Origin: a virus
Reading direction: 5' to 3' (one strand)
DNA: 39,526 nucleotides
IMG/VR virus record: IMGVR_UViG_3300035681_000054
Span: 1 to 39,526 of that record
Part shown: positions 1-39,526 of the stretch, piece after piece
Layout of the letters: the number at the start of each line of letters is the position of its first letter
How positions within the stretch are numbered: position 1 is the first letter of the stretch
Notes under the pieces: model-generated
Told to the model about the DNA's origin: nothing
Seen by the model: only the letters and a program-made list of their open reading frames with translations
Databases searched by the model: none
Program-made: the position numbers and the translations under genes

Positions 1-127
1 GCTTTACTTCCTGCGCCATTTTTTCGGCAGCTTCGCCCTCTTCGTACTCTACAAAAATGCCAAACTGGTTAGCCAAATCTTCAATTGCTTTTGGATACTC
101 GCAACCGTTTTTGGTCATATAAAAACT
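1..127. repeat. Terminal direct repeat, left copy (circularisation overlap)
   Basis: Bases 1-127 are identical to 39400-39526, in the same orientation. The overlap lies inside the primase reading frame, which continues in frame across it. An exact 127-base overlap is the typical result of a de Bruijn assembly of a circular or circularly permuted molecule at k=127, so I read it as an assembly overlap and not as physical phage termini. Confidence 0.93.
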
Positions 128-337
128 AATGGCATTGTTTCCACCTTTATGGCATCCAAAGCATTTGTAAACTCCCTTTGCAAGGTTCACATTAAAGCTT
201 GGAGTTTTTTCATCATGAAAAGGGCAGCATCCAGAGTAATTAACGCCATGTTTCTTTAGGTCAACAAACTTGCCTATTACATCAACAAGGTCAAGGTTAT
301 AAACCGCTTCTATAGTGGTATGCTTAATTAATGGCAT
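1..337 (-). CDS. DnaG-type primase, N-terminal part (continues at 39526)
   Basis: This is the 5' part of the primase/ATPase gene, split by the window edge. Translating the minus strand from the ATG at 337-335 gives 73 residues that join in frame to the part ending at 36527, for 1069 residues in all. It carries a CHC2 zinc finger of the DnaG kind: GCCPFHDEKTPSF at about residues 36-48, then KCFGC at 58-62, so C38, H41, C59 and C62 are the likely zinc ligands. In DnaG this finger reads the single-stranded template for primer synthesis. The start is supported because the zinc-finger domain begins about 30 residues in, as in bacterial DnaG. The gene follows the ASCH-like gene by 15 bp in the early operon. 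Confidence 0.93.
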   Translation of the reverse strand, partial: MPLIKHTTIEAVYNLDLVDVIGKFVDLKKHGVNYSGCCPFHDEKTPSFNVNLAKGVYKCFGCHKGGNNAISFYMTKNGCEYPKAIEDLANQFGIFVEYEEGEAAEKMAQEVK

Positions 338-3532: not shown

Positions 3533-3847
3533 TTATTCATCACCAACTTTATAAAGTTTAGCCCCTCTATGGTTAAGTAATTGGCTCCGCACATCATTAA
3601 TGCTCTGCTCTTGTTTCCAAAAATCATTAATTTGTTCATTAATGCATTTCATTCCTTCAAGCAATTCAAGCTTGTTTTCTAGTCTTGGCAATTCAATTTG
3701 AACTATATCAAGCATGGCATTAGCTCCACCATAAAAAAGTCGCTTGCTACTTTCTTTTTTGTCGGCACTAAGCTTTGTAAGGTCAATGCCTAATTTTCCC
3801 ATAAACAATTCATATTGTTTATTTAAATCAATGTTTTCGTTAGTCAT
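3533..3847 (-). CDS. Hypothetical helical early protein
   Basis: 104 residues. Largely helical, with a likely coiled segment around IELPRLENKLELLEGMKC and INEQINDFWKQEQSINDVRS. No family is recognised. Its start overlaps the end of the DnaA-like gene by 8 bp, so the two are probably translationally coupled. A partner role in replication initiation is possible from that coupling alone. Confidence 0.6.
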   Translation of the reverse strand: MTNENIDLNKQYELFMGKLGIDLTKLSADKKESSKRLFYGGANAMLDIVQIELPRLENKLELLEGMKCINEQINDFWKQEQSINDVRSQLLNHRGAKLYKVGDE

Positions 3848-4238
3848 GTTTTATAGGGTTAAAAACGGTTGTACACTTTTCAAATTCTGCTATAATATCA
3901 TAATATGGATCCTCCACTATTTTGTAAAAAAGTGATGAAACAATTTCAAAAGCTGTTGTTACATCATGATATTTTTTTTCCAAATCATTCGAAATTGTTC
4001 TGCAAGCATGTAATACTGTTGCATGGTCGAATCCTCCTGTAATTTTACCTACATCTGCCTGACCTATACCAGCAATTCTGTGAAGTATATATTGTATTAC
4101 TTGCCTTTTCCTAGCAATTTCTCTTTTTTTAGTTTTTTTAGTTATTAAAGAAACTGTAGTATTAAGCTCCTCACAGCATGCCCTCAAGAAAACATTATAT
4201 TTTTGAGGACTTTCAATTAATCCATAATTATCTATCAT
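3840..4238 (-). CDS. Stand-alone DnaA domain IV-like DNA-binding protein
   Basis: 132 residues. Residues about 38-85 match the C-terminal double-stranded DNA-binding domain of the bacterial initiator DnaA: REIARKRQVIQYILHRIAG, then ADVGKITGGFDHATVLHACR at about 61-80, the latter being the DnaA signature (usually GGRDHTTVLHA) that reads the DnaA box. There is no AAA+ ATPase domain; the whole gene is little longer than domain IV. A protein of this kind could bind origin repeats, or host DnaA boxes, and recruit the phage primase. It overlaps the DUF4406 gene upstream by 4 bp and the helical protein downstream by 8 bp. The TCGGACA repeats after the primase gene are an obvious candidate target, which is inference. 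Confidence 0.82.
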   Translation of the reverse strand: MIDNYGLIESPQKYNVFLRACCEELNTTVSLITKKTKKREIARKRQVIQYILHRIAGIGQADVGKITGGFDHATVLHACRTISNDLEKKYHDVTTAFEIVSSLFYKIVEDPYYDIIAEFEKCTTVFNPIKHD

Positions 4239-35056: not shown

Positions 35057-35509
35057 TTATGCAGCGTTTTTTTTGTTAAAACGCTTGTATGTAGTTCTAA
35101 AATATTCAACATCTGTTTCACTGTCCGGCAAATTATGATCAGCTATAAATTGCTCAATACAAGCCTTAACATCAGTTCCAGAAAATCTTCTATAAAAGCT
35201 CATCCATTCAAAAAAATATTCTTTCATTTTGTGCTCTACGTAGTTATTAAACTCATCAATTGCACCCGGTAAAATAAAACATTTGCGGTTCATGTGCTTG
35301 TATGAACCTAAAACAATACTAAAGCATTTTACAGCATCATACTTAATATATTGAGGACATTTGTTTTTAGTGACAAGCAAGCTTGAAATAAAAATACCAA
35401 GGCTATGCTTTGAAGAAAGTTTGTAGTAACCATCCGGTGCATATTTTGCCCGCAAAAAAGAAAGTACCCTCGAACTCTTTATTGGAATATGCACCGTTTG
35501 GTTATCCAC
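35057..35509 (-). CDS. Hypothetical protein, possible late regulator
   Basis: 150 residues, basic. The best start is a GTG at 35509, since no in-frame ATG lies upstream and the next internal ATG is far. Helical C-terminus (DVKACIEQFIADHNLPDSET, then DVEYFRTTYKRFNKKNAA) could be DNA-binding. It stands between the early operon and the first late promoter motif, the place where phages often encode a late-gene activator; that role is inference only. The start codon lies inside a perfect DnaA-box-like 9-mer, TTATCCACA (35502-35510). Confidence 0.6.
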   Translation of the reverse strand: MDNQTVHIPIKSSRVLSFLRAKYAPDGYYKLSSKHSLGIFISSLLVTKNKCPQYIKYDAVKCFSIVLGSYKHMNRKCFILPGAIDEFNNYVEHKMKEYFFEWMSFYRRFSGTDVKACIEQFIADHNLPDSETDVEYFRTTYKRFNKKNAA

Positions 35510-36039: not shown

Positions 36040-36264
36040 TTATTTTTTAATTTTATTATAATATTTAATCATTTCATTTTGTTTCGTATTCTCTTTTATT
36101 TTTTTGTCCTCAATCGCCTTTTTAAGAGCTGTCAGATTTGTTTTCATGACATTGTTATTGTCGAAATTGTAAAGATGAATTTCTTCACCCTCTAAAAATC
36201 GGATCTGCCAACTCGAAAGTGTAGTAAAACTGTAATAGACGAAATAGAGTTCAGGAACCATCAT
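36040..36264 (-). CDS. Small hypothetical protein after the origin candidate
   Basis: 74 residues (ATG at 36264 or 36261). The first half has aromatic residues (VPELYFVYYSFTTLSSWQIR), the second is basic and helical (TALKKAIEDKKIKENTKQNE). No family is recognised. It follows the repeat-bearing frame with a 4-bp overlap and abuts the next gene. Its basic tail might bind nucleic acid. Confidence 0.5.
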   Translation of the reverse strand: MMVPELYFVYYSFTTLSSWQIRFLEGEEIHLYNFDNNNVMKTNLTALKKAIEDKKIKENTKQNEMIKYYNKIKK

Positions 36265-36524
36265 TTTGAAAAAAAATATTTTTTATAGCTCGATAGGGCA
36301 AAAAAGCTTCGGACATTTCGGGCAAATCGGACAAGGCTCATTATCAAACAATTAACTTCGGACAAAGCCCTTTTCTTGTCCGAAACTGTCCGAAACACGT
36401 TTTTTGTCTTTCGGACACTTTCGGACAGTTTCGGACAGGTTTCGGACATCTTTTTTATACTTAATTTATTCATATTCATATTATTAACTAGTTTGTCCGA
36501 AATGTCCGAAAGAAAAATTCCCAT
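36261..36524 (-). CDS. Doubtful frame spanning the origin repeats
   Basis: 87 codons, starting 3 bp after the primase stop and overlapping the next gene by 4 bp, which is coding-like spacing. But much of its sequence is dictated by the TCGGACA repeats read in two orientations (for example MSETCPKLSESVRKTKNVFR), and its composition is unlike the neighbours. It may be a real gene that also carries the origin, or a chance frame kept open by the repeats. Listed with low confidence. Confidence 0.3.
   Translation of the reverse strand: MGIFLSDISDKLVNNMNMNKLSIKKMSETCPKLSESVRKTKNVFRTVSDKKRALSEVNCLIMSLVRFARNVRSFFALSSYKKYFFSK
36309..36509. other. Iteron array, candidate replication origin
   Basis: Twelve TCGGACA units in about 200 bp. 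Direct orientation: 36309, 36318 (TCGGGCA), 36327, 36358, 36411, 36421, 36431, 36442. Inverted: 36377, 36387, 36494, 36503. Neighbouring units are mostly 9-11 bp apart, so they lie on one face of the helix. A 45-bp AT-rich stretch (about 36449-36493) lies between the last direct and the last inverted pair and could be the unwinding element. It adjoins the primase gene. Confidence 0.75.
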
Positions 36525-36526
36525 TT

Positions 36527-39526
36527 TTAAAAAGCTTCCTCTGTTTTTGAAAATTCTGCATTATTTTCGAAATTTAACATTGATTCACCTTTAGCTTCAT
36601 CAAAATTGGTCGATGAATTTCTTCTAAATTTTGAAGCAATTTCCATGGCCGCCATAAAATCAGAATACACTTTTGCTTTTTCTAAATCAAATCTGAATCC
36701 ACTGCTTTTTCCATTCTCTCCATTATTGTATCTCACTGAAGAAACTACTTCAATAAAACAATCGCTTTTCTTCAATTTATCTGATAAAACCATTTTGCTC
36801 AAACCATTCTTTTTATAAAGCACATAGTGCATCTTTAAATACCTTGTATATACTTGGCTAAACTGCATTACAATGTTTGATCCGTCTAAAACAAACTCCC
36901 TGTGTTGCTCAATAGGCTCTTTTGTATCTTTAACAGATTCAATAATGCATTCCCAAAAATGAGCTACAACACTGCCAGTGCTTCTCTTATTTCCTTGTCG
37001 CTCATAAACGGATAACATATTGGATTTAAAATCTGTCCAGGTAAAAGGATATTGTAAAGCTTCCGCAGTTAATTTATAACAAGCTCCAAGCACTGCAGCA
37101 TTCTGAATCATCCTATCATTTAAAGTGGAAAAAGTTAATTCAGGAGTAAGCTCCGCAACTACTTCTTTAAACACTGGCCTAAAATCACTCTCAAATTTTG
37201 GTCTATGGGCCAATATTTCGCAAAGCAAGCTGCTATACCCATCAATAGTCATTTCTTTAAGCTTATCATAATTGTTTTTTTGTTCCTGAGTAAACTCAGT
37301 TATATTCATTTCCTCACCAATAAAGCGGGTTATTAATGCATCATTCGTAGGATAATCGTTACCCGTAAAAACCAAACTCATAGTAATTTGAATAGAGTCG
37401 GTACCTACGGAGCTATCAATATTACCACGCTCGTAACCTACACGGTCCCAAAAGCTTTTAATCATCTGATCAGTATTTTCATCGCCATTGGCATACTCTG
37501 TCATATGTCCTATCATATTATAGAACTGGGCAAACTTCCTTACCTTAGCTTTGTCTGTATTAGCCTTACCGGTGATGGTGATGGCAGTTTGAGGATTACC
37601 AAAAAAACTTTGAATCGCATGTATTAAATTATCCTTTCCTGATCCTGGCTCACCATATAAAAACATAATAGGAAAAGAACCTATCCTGGAATAGATTAAA
37701 TCTGAAAAAACAGTGGCTACAGTAAAAAGCAATGCATTAATAGCATGGTTACGGTGTACAGCTTTAATTTGATGAGCCACTTCCTTAAAGTTATACTTAG
37801 AAGGAATAAACACGGCATTCTTTTGCTGTAAAAATTTACCGCTATTACGCTCATAAATTTTGTTGCCCGATGGCACGTAGTAACTATCTCCTGCATATTC
37901 AAAGCAACCGTTATCATCATAATACTTGTTTTTACCATCAAGTATCATACTATTATTAAAAGCCCAAAAGCCTTCCGGCTGCCAACCCAATATCTGAATC
38001 ATACGTCCATCGCCCATATCATCCTTAAGTTTTGTACACAATCTTGCAAAATCAGCTCCTTGACCTTTCCAGTCATAGTTTCCTTTTCCTTCCAACATTT
38101 TACGAAAACCCATTTCGGTAACAAAATCATCGCTGCTGGTGTCAAAAGTTCTTTTTCTGTTGTGAATGTTGGTTATCTCAACCAAGCGCATGGGGCGTTT
38201 TTCATCCTCCATGTGCTGTATAATTTTAATGCTGAAATTAGATACTGCAGCAAACCTGTAAGGATCATCACCCCTGCGCATGTAAATAACATTATCGTGC
38301 GTAAAAAACTGATACTTTAACACTTCATCCCTAATGTGGCGCCATTTAAGCACAGCGGTTAAGTGTTTAGGTATCTCATAATTATCCTCTTCTAAGCTAG
38401 TGTGGATTAAATTTTCTTTATCCTCTCTAGCGATATCTCGCGCAAAGCCTTGTACAGTTTTAACCAACGATGTTTTTTTAACGCCAGTTATTTCTAATAC
38501 CTGTTCAATTAAATCATCACGCAAAAAAGGATCGTGAACGAATGCCAATAGCTGGCAAATTTCTTTTAGCGCTTCGCTTTTTGCTGATAATTCTACAATT
38601 TCAAGAAACTGCGTAGCGGTCCACAAAATAAAATTCTTACGATTTTCAGCAATAAAAGCCTGCACCCCATAATTAGTATAGCACATTTCAGTACTCCCAA
38701 AAAAACTATTGGGATCATCATTATTAGGCAGCCAAAGCACATCAACCATATAACCAAGGCTCATGGCCAAAGTGGCATTTTTAATGCAAGCTTTTACGCC
38801 AGCCTTATCACCATCATAAATAAGCAATAGCTTTTTAGCCTTAGCCTCTTTAGCCAACAGCTTTAATTGATTTGGAGTTAAAGCAGTGCCACAGGCGGCC
38901 ACAGTATTACAAATCATTTTCTCATGCATGGTAATTACATCCCAGTTACCTTCTACAATGGTAGCTTCACCCTTTTCAATAATAAAAGGTTTGGCAATGT
39001 GCAAACCAAAAAGCACATTACTTTTAGTATAGGCCACACTATCTGGGCTATTGCTATATTTTGGATTTGTAGAAGTAACAGGTTCTAAAGTGCGGCCGCT
39101 AAAACCTACTAATTTATTACGATGGTCCTTAATTGGAAACATTAATCTGTTTCTGTAACCATCATACACCTTTTTCTTTTCGGTATTGTTTTTTAGCAAA
39201 CCAAGTTCTGTGGCAATGGTAGAGTAATCACCTTTTTCGTGCAAAAAGTTCTTTAACCCATCCCATCCTGATGGAGCGAACCCAAGTTCCCAAATTTCGG
39301 CAGTTTCGGCTTTGCATCGTAACTGATCAGCGGCAAGCTTTAGGTTCGAAACAAAGAATTCATTTGCCAAAATATTCACATCAACAAGCTCAGCCTTATG
39401 CTTTACTTCCTGCGCCATTTTTTCGGCAGCTTCGCCCTCTTCGTACTCTACAAAAATGCCAAACTGGTTAGCCAAATCTTCAATTGCTTTTGGATACTCG
39501 CAACCGTTTTTGGTCATATAAAAACT
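36527..39526 (-). CDS. DnaG-type primase fused to helicase-like ATPase (continues at 337)
   Basis: This is the main part of a 1069-residue protein whose first 73 residues lie at 1-337. After the CHC2 zinc finger comes the primase catalytic core with a TOPRIM domain: ATIVEGNWDV (E262 in full numbering), then LLLIYDGDKAG (D308-D310). The C-terminal half carries an ATPase: FLYGEPGSGKDN is Walker A (about 695-702), followed by LVFTGNDYPTND-type elements of phage and plasmid DUF927-like helicases. So one protein would prime and unwind DNA. It lies in the early operon with the iteron array at its 3' end. The sequence shows no frameshift. Confidence 0.93.
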   Translation of the reverse strand, partial: SFYMTKNGCEYPKAIEDLANQFGIFVEYEEGEAAEKMAQEVKHKAELVDVNILANEFFVSNLKLAADQLRCKAETAEIWELGFAPSGWDGLKNFLHEKGDYSTIATELGLLKNNTEKKKVYDGYRNRLMFPIKDHRNKLVGFSGRTLEPVTSTNPKYSNSPDSVAYTKSNVLFGLHIAKPFIIEKGEATIVEGNWDVITMHEKMICNTVAACGTALTPNQLKLLAKEAKAKKLLLIYDGDKAGVKACIKNATLAMSLGYMVDVLWLPNNDDPNSFFGSTEMCYTNYGVQAFIAENRKNFILWTATQFLEIVELSAKSEALKEICQLLAFVHDPFLRDDLIEQVLEITGVKKTSLVKTVQGFARDIAREDKENLIHTSLEEDNYEIPKHLTAVLKWRHIRDEVLKYQFFTHDNVIYMRRGDDPYRFAAVSNFSIKIIQHMEDEKRPMRLVEITNIHNRKRTFDTSSDDFVTEMGFRKMLEGKGNYDWKGQGADFARLCTKLKDDMGDGRMIQILGWQPEGFWAFNNSMILDGKNKYYDDNGCFEYAGDSYYVPSGNKIYERNSGKFLQQKNAVFIPSKYNFKEVAHQIKAVHRNHAINALLFTVATVFSDLIYSRIGSFPIMFLYGEPGSGKDNLIHAIQSFFGNPQTAITITGKANTDKAKVRKFAQFYNMIGHMTEYANGDENTDQMIKSFWDRVGYERGNIDSSVGTDSIQITMSLVFTGNDYPTNDALITRFIGEEMNITEFTQEQKNNYDKLKEMTIDGYSSLLCEILAHRPKFESDFRPVFKEVVAELTPELTFSTLNDRMIQNAAVLGACYKLTAEALQYPFTWTDFKSNMLSVYERQGNKRSTGSVVAHFWECIIESVKDTKEPIEQHREFVLDGSNIVMQFSQVYTRYLKMHYVLYKKNGLSKMVLSDKLKKSDCFIEVVSSVRYNNGENGKSSGFRFDLEKAKVYSDFMAAMEIASKFRRNSSTNFDEAKGESMLNFENNAEFSKTEEAF
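39400..39526. repeat. Terminal direct repeat, right copy
   Basis: Identical to 1-127 in the same orientation, inside the primase gene. Removing one copy gives the 39,399-bp circle. Confidence 0.93.

Follow-up and report, generated by a model that had tools for sequence, protein, structure and literature searches.

Iteron array beside a primase-helicase gene as a putative replication origin in tailed phages of Bacteroidota

In this study we analysed a stretch of viral DNA of 39,526 nucleotides, in the following called the window, and describe an array of TCGGACA units which, judged from sequence comparison, very probably represents a theta-type replication origin that would be bound by the C-terminal winged helix of the adjacent primase-helicase itself. 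An initiator-binding, phage-specific origin had been suggested in an earlier note on this DNA. This suggestion is supported by the position of the array, by its AT-rich element, by a geometry that is kept among relatives and by the co-variation of the unit with a wing residue of the primase-helicase that is predicted to contact DNA.

The array and the adjacent primase-helicase

All 11 exact copies of TCGGACA in the window are located within the array and start at 36309, 36327, 36358, 36411, 36421, 36431 and 36442 in the plus orientation and at 36377, 36387, 36494 and 36503 in the minus orientation. In 100 dinucleotide shuffles of the window the same unit occurred 0.70 times on average and three times at most. 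Together with a one-mismatch unit, TCGGGCA at 36318-36324, this confirms the twelve 7-bp units in both orientations that had been described before, and the reported spacing of 9-11 bp was likewise measured from start to start for adjacent units inside clusters. As noted earlier, the repeats follow right after the primase/ATPase gene on the minus strand, which ends at 36527 and leaves 17 bp between its stop codon and the start of the array. In the 1.5 kb behind this stop codon the best 7-mer reached 11 copies, compared to a mean of 3.9 and a maximum of 6 in shuffled sequence. The AT-rich stretch mentioned among the repeats was located in spacer 1 (Table 1). The reading frame of 87 aa that overlaps the array had been called doubtful; it is very probably not a gene, since it matched no family at its cut-off and the unit spacings are not multiples of three. 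GC skew, proposed in the earlier note as a check, tracks gene direction in the window and points to no origin.

The two ends of the window (1-127 and 39400-39526) share 127 identical bases. This points to a circular record or a circular assembly, whose ends interrupt the primase gene. This gene spans the terminal overlap and encodes 1069 aa once the circle is joined, compared to a product of 996 aa in the window. Residue numbers given here refer to the full length of 1069 aa, and subtraction of 73 yields the numbering of the 996-aa reading frame.

Table 1. Positions of the array, its parts and the associated coding regions in the window
Feature	Position	Strand	Basis or remark
Iteron array, putative replication origin	36309..36509	both orientations	11 TCGGACA + 1 TCGGGCA
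Site pair 1, closest to the primase stop codon	36494..36509	-	units 36503 and 36494
AT-rich spacer 1, 45 bp, candidate unwinding element	36449..36493		sequence
Central cluster, four units 10-11 bp apart	36411..36448	+	
Site pair opposing the central cluster	36377..36393	-	inverted, 17 bp away
Distal units 36309, 36318 (TCGGGCA), 36327 and 36358	36309..36364	+	
87-aa reading frame running over the array, in all likelihood no gene	36261..36524	-	
DnaG-type primase (DNAG_N + Toprim) - AAA+ helicase - winged-helix protein	36527..39517	-	continues at window 2-337 (-)
AAA+/helicase part, P-loop GEPGSGKD	36977..37792	-	Foldseek
C-terminal winged-helix domain, predicted DNA binder	36626..36976	-	AlphaFold2, pLDDT 93
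Codon of wing residue K1010 (K937 in the 996-aa product)	36707..36709	-	column with the strongest link to the unit
Stand-alone DnaA domain IV-like protein, possible accessory factor	3840..4238	-	Pfam; rare in the family

The N-terminal part of the primase comprises the DnaG N-terminal core and a Toprim domain according to Pfam. The window primase and that of locus L240 retain the cysteines which bind zinc in the DnaG N-terminal domain (window 119-337 and 39300-39526, minus strand); they are gone in 45 of 47 relatives, which keep the remainder of this domain. For the helicase part of the window protein no Pfam family scored above the cut-off, across the 48 members scattered weak matches were seen only, and neither DUF927 nor the D5/Primase_Cterm helicase family matched the window protein. 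The middle of the protein carries the P-loop and an AAA+ fold. With a helicase-plus-CTD model that comprises the last 421 residues (pLDDT 86), Foldseek returned SCCmec Cch (5dgk), SaPI PriRep1 with DNA (7pds) and SaPIBov1 Rep (8tch) as the best PDB matches, Cch being the top one. As modelled, the closest folds of the helicase part are those of self-loading initiator helicases.

Folded alone by AlphaFold2, the C-terminal domain is predicted as helix, hairpin, helix, helix, strand, wing, strand and helix, and from this order of elements we regard it as a winged helix. A search of the PDB with its sequence gave no match and one with its structure no confident match (best E 0.07), the weak ones comprising ORC/Cdc6, forkhead and PriRep1. 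Residue K1010 is the first of the strand after the wing and lies ahead of a conserved [ST]S. Besides, 27 of 48 primases close in a mostly acidic tail plus PF, often LPF (e.g. L106:9711 and L160:7973), which resembles the C-terminal tip of bacterial SSB and may recruit SSB-binding host proteins.

The array in related phages

The comparison comprised 48 distinct homologues (<97% identity) from viral contigs, genome contigs and isolated phages. Where hosts are known, they belong to the Bacteroidota, and the set includes the isolated Flavobacterium phages laban6-1 and 1H (Duneviridae). A single-sequence search of viral contigs with the window protein found no homologues; alignments were needed.

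An array 3' of the primase was present in 48 of 48 relatives used. In 42 of them some 7-mer occurs at least five times within the 420 bp that follow the primase stop, compared to 10 of 1225 control windows taken from these loci. The other six have fewer exact copies, with mixed or degenerate units (such as L160, L161, L249 and L265) or, in L240, a displaced array. The two lowest are L240 and L160, the latter with a degenerate mixed-unit array only, in which the best 7-mer has three copies. In L240 the array of 10 TCGGACA copies is separated from the primase by an integrase-like gene (L240:7873-8942), a natural displacement of the origin candidate from the primase gene. The earlier note had stated that relatives which replicate alike without the repeats would argue against an origin. 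Every member of the core family carried an array at this place; none was found near the primase in a few newer or more distant homologues (L167/L291, L311, L374, Ingeline (L124), L169, L135/L383, L384 and L385), so the expectation that relatives share the array holds for the core family but not for these. In a Porphyromonas phage a distance of about 1.4 kb separates the primase from the array downstream of it.

The unit differs between lineages and was found as TCGGACA, TCCAACA, TTCCACA, TTCAACA, TTCTACA, TCTCAACA, TCTGACA, CCTTACA, TTACTGA, TCCC(A/G)AC and others, whereas the layout is nearly unchanged with several unit sequences. Starting at the primase stop and with the gaps given in bp, it reads >2>43<4<3<3<14>3>43<1<, i.e. 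two forward sites, about 43 bp of AT-rich sequence, four reverse sites, 14 bp, two forward sites, about 43 bp and two reverse sites. Some members depart from it in that one or two sites are not recognisable or gaps vary. Among the 48 relatives the mean GC content is 17% in spacer 1 and 26% in spacer 2, compared to 36% in the loci. That the letters of the unit change and the spacing stays is the prediction for an array bound by a multimer. Mixed arrays in L253, L251, L265 and L165 combine two spellings symmetrically, e.g. TCTAACA and TTCAACA, and are perhaps intermediates in a change of unit. In many members (e.g. L242 and L243) the second spacer contains a (C/T)TGA(A/T)AATCA-like element before the last unit pair, and a similar one is found in spacer 1.

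These comparisons also bear on the idea that the primase transcript ends in a structured RNA or a terminator made up of the repeats, which we consider exceedingly improbable. The central inverted block of the array does have arms of 19-22 nt, and one terminator-like stem was found, but there was no Rfam match, and the best-kept features are spacings on double-stranded DNA, together with single units of either orientation at most about 45 bp apart. Moreover, L240 provides a natural case of an array moved off the primase, and the coupling to a wing residue of the protein described below is unexpected for a terminator.

Concerning the protein that may bind the array, only the primase family was found in every one of the 51 loci compared, and the second most frequent gene family in 27. 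An origin bound by another protein, namely the DnaA-domain protein at 3840-4238, a LuxR-like HTH protein of the relatives or host DnaA, appears very unlikely. The first of these contains a Pfam DnaA domain IV (E 3e-15), many units end in ACA like the DnaA box, and one perfect DnaA box is present at 35502, the only one of the window and 0.8 kb from the array. Against this, no exact box (TTATNCACA) occurs within the array and the window shows no excess of them. Accordingly, a cluster of the DnaA/oriC type was not detected at the array, and the view of the earlier note that the origin is not of the DnaA-box type fits these findings. The LuxR-like protein is present in 27 of 51 loci, and a host protein cannot account for lineage-specific units that follow a primase residue. 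A homologue of the DnaA-domain protein, a weak one, was seen in L240 only, i.e. in one of 50 other loci. We therefore rejected this protein, which the earlier note had listed along with the primase for a gel shift, as a general partner of the array and regard the primase as the better candidate initiator.

Co-variation of the unit with a wing residue

In an automated test arrays were compared by their repeated 6-mers, and for each primase column a shared residue was related to a shared array beyond overall identity. Wing column 1010 ranked first of 999 with a partial r of 0.56, the next column reaching 0.33. With 12 further members (60 in total) it again ranked first of 1028 (r 0.44, z 6.4), and it was also first after thinning to 26 members of <55% identity. 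Identity of the whole C-terminal domain beyond that of the body added almost nothing to the prediction of the unit (partial r 0.07), and whole-domain similarity was dropped as a predictor beyond overall relatedness. The association is concentrated in few columns.

Regarding single residues, K occurred with CGGACA in five of five cases and in no other of the 48 members, and N with CCAACA/CCACA in 12 of 14 and nowhere else. S or A accompanied TCAACA (12 of 12, also in three others), P accompanied TTCTACA (5 of 5, also in L242), and R was found with CTC(A/G)AC, CCC(A/G)AC, CTGACA and TTACTGA (10 of 10). These classes were partly merged after inspection of the data, and for this reason we rely on the automated test, which is free of classes. 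In a tree based on the remainder of the protein, both TCGGACA and K arise twice, once in the clade of the window, L106, L240 and L130 and once in L256, which is the sister of L159 (TCCAACA, N). The direction of change always agrees in independent pairs within each class, although these are too few for significance.

The rule from residue to unit was fixed in writing before further loci were fetched. L359, with 38% identity to the nearest known member, has K and 12 copies of CCGGACA and thus matched, as did the nearer relative L290 (R, TCTCAAC). A partial match was obtained for L367/L368 (N, mixed TCCCACA and TCCGAACA), whereas L289 (R, unit of the ATCCTGC type) and L373 (S, TCCTACA) were misses; L311 and L374 have no array to score. 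Seen post hoc, CTAC or TTACA occurs in the units of six members with V, a residue that the rule did not include, and I at the wing column is combined with a TCCTACA unit in the Porphyromonas phage. The sequences thus indicate that the wing residue is a strong but not the sole determinant of the unit, and the relation is no simple lookup table.

In view of these data we consider it somewhat probable that this lineage of tailed phages has a fixed origin geometry in which a few wing positions, chiefly one residue, set the unit that is read, lock and key being exchanged together. The specificity rule would then be K for CGGACA, N for CCAACA/CCACA, S or A for TCAACA, P, V or I for CTACA-like units and R mostly for CTC(A/G)ACA, CCC(A/G)ACA or CTGACA.

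The co-variation is also relevant for the explanation that the array is an operator at which a phage regulator or the primase itself controls transcription of early genes. Operators, too, typically have helically phased sites in either orientation, and a promoter-like match (9/12) lies inside the array. Nevertheless, this explanation is scarcely probable, as about ten sites extend over 200 bp at the 3' end of a gene, the AT-rich spacers have fixed lengths, the letters of the unit track the wing residue of the helicase-primase and no gene family besides the primase is found in all loci. Self-regulation of the primase through binding of the array would be compatible with an origin.

Proposed mechanism and known systems

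For the array as an origin we propose that the C-terminal winged helix of the primase-helicase binds the TCGGACA units and that K1010 helps to read the middle of the unit. Units one helical turn apart, arranged in opposed groups around AT-rich spacers, would let AAA+ subunits assemble, probably into two opposed helicase rings. These rings would open the AT-rich spacers and then unwind the DNA, and the attached DnaG-type domain would lay the primers. We infer winged-helix binding, ring assembly, spacer melting and DnaG priming from the analogous proteins SaPI Rep, Cch2 and P4 alpha, in which the C-terminal domain binds repeats located within or beside the respective gene.

In SaPI/PICI elements, the initiator gene is followed on its 3' side at once by an AT-rich region between iteron sets, the C-terminal domain of Rep binds these sets, and the units differ between elements (PMC7581432; PMC6092414). 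Similarly, the array described here is located directly 3' of an initiator helicase gene, with iteron sets flanking an AT-rich stretch, and the likeness of the helicase with its C-terminal domain is one of predicted structure (Foldseek 7pds and 8tch). Unlike these satellites, the carriers here are complete tailed phages that encode tail, protease and packaging functions themselves, the window having matches for a tape measure, a head protease and, weakly, a terminase. Moreover, SaPI primases are described as archaeo-eukaryotic, whereas the window primase is of the DnaG/Toprim type, and its helicase part matched no Pfam family, neither DUF927 nor D5/Primase_Cterm.

P4 alpha is a primase-helicase with a primase of the bacterial Toprim type, and its C-terminal winged helix binds repeats (PMC4234260). 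In the P4 record the alpha gene is directly followed on its 3' side by crr, in which type 1 repeats occur in either orientation. The window protein contains a Toprim primase, a helicase part and a predicted winged helix that may bind the repeats adjoining its gene. No sequence relation between the two was detectable, as profile comparison found the P-loop only, and TIGR01613, the primase_Cterm model of the P4 family, matched P4 alpha itself but not the window protein. Furthermore, P4 has two arrays (crr and ori), whereas one was seen in the window. The C-terminal domain of SCCmec Cch2 also binds repeats just downstream of its own gene (PMC7581432), but SCCmec has few repeats (three 5-nt iterons) and no fused DnaG domain. 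The primase-helicase ORF904 of pRN1 likewise has a C-terminal winged helix and an origin directly 3' of its gene (PMC4234260), but a single 100-nt stem-loop instead of iterons and a primase of the archaeal type. Since DUF927, D5 and TIGR01613 gave no match and the carrier is a complete phage, membership in the SaPI/PICI and P4 families fails on these features.

A scan for TTCGGACANNTTCGGACA returned mostly an unrelated family of primase-helicases with Prim-Pol, PriCT-2, AAA_25 and a C-terminal HTH, GC-rich in the contigs checked. Among 45 other viral contigs with clustered TCGGACA, 41 have the array at a distance of 1-15 bp from where such a gene ends (3') (L042:7241-9404, L027:10468-12628 and 39 further loci among L005-L116). 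As these contigs were found by a search for TCGGACA, the shared letters are partly a result of selection, but the shared place is not. Kinship of the window protein with this Prim-Pol helicase was rejected, as profile comparison gave no relation.

The proposed mode of action is known in kind from the Rep-ori systems of SaPI/PICI and from alpha-crr of P4, and these complete tailed phages appear to share it. Our literature search, of incomplete coverage and thus not establishing priority, found no published origin for this phage group. The array shows where a large group of Bacteroidota phages, among them isolated phages of Flavobacterium, probably has its replication origin, and the linked changes of repeat and wing residue provide a testable rule for the choice of an origin by its initiator helicase. 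If lock and key are indeed exchanged together, these phages would hold a natural set of mutually exclusive origins, in which the combination of TCGGACA and K was reached independently at least twice. The linked changes may also be a source of orthogonal replicons and make prophages that reside together incompatible.
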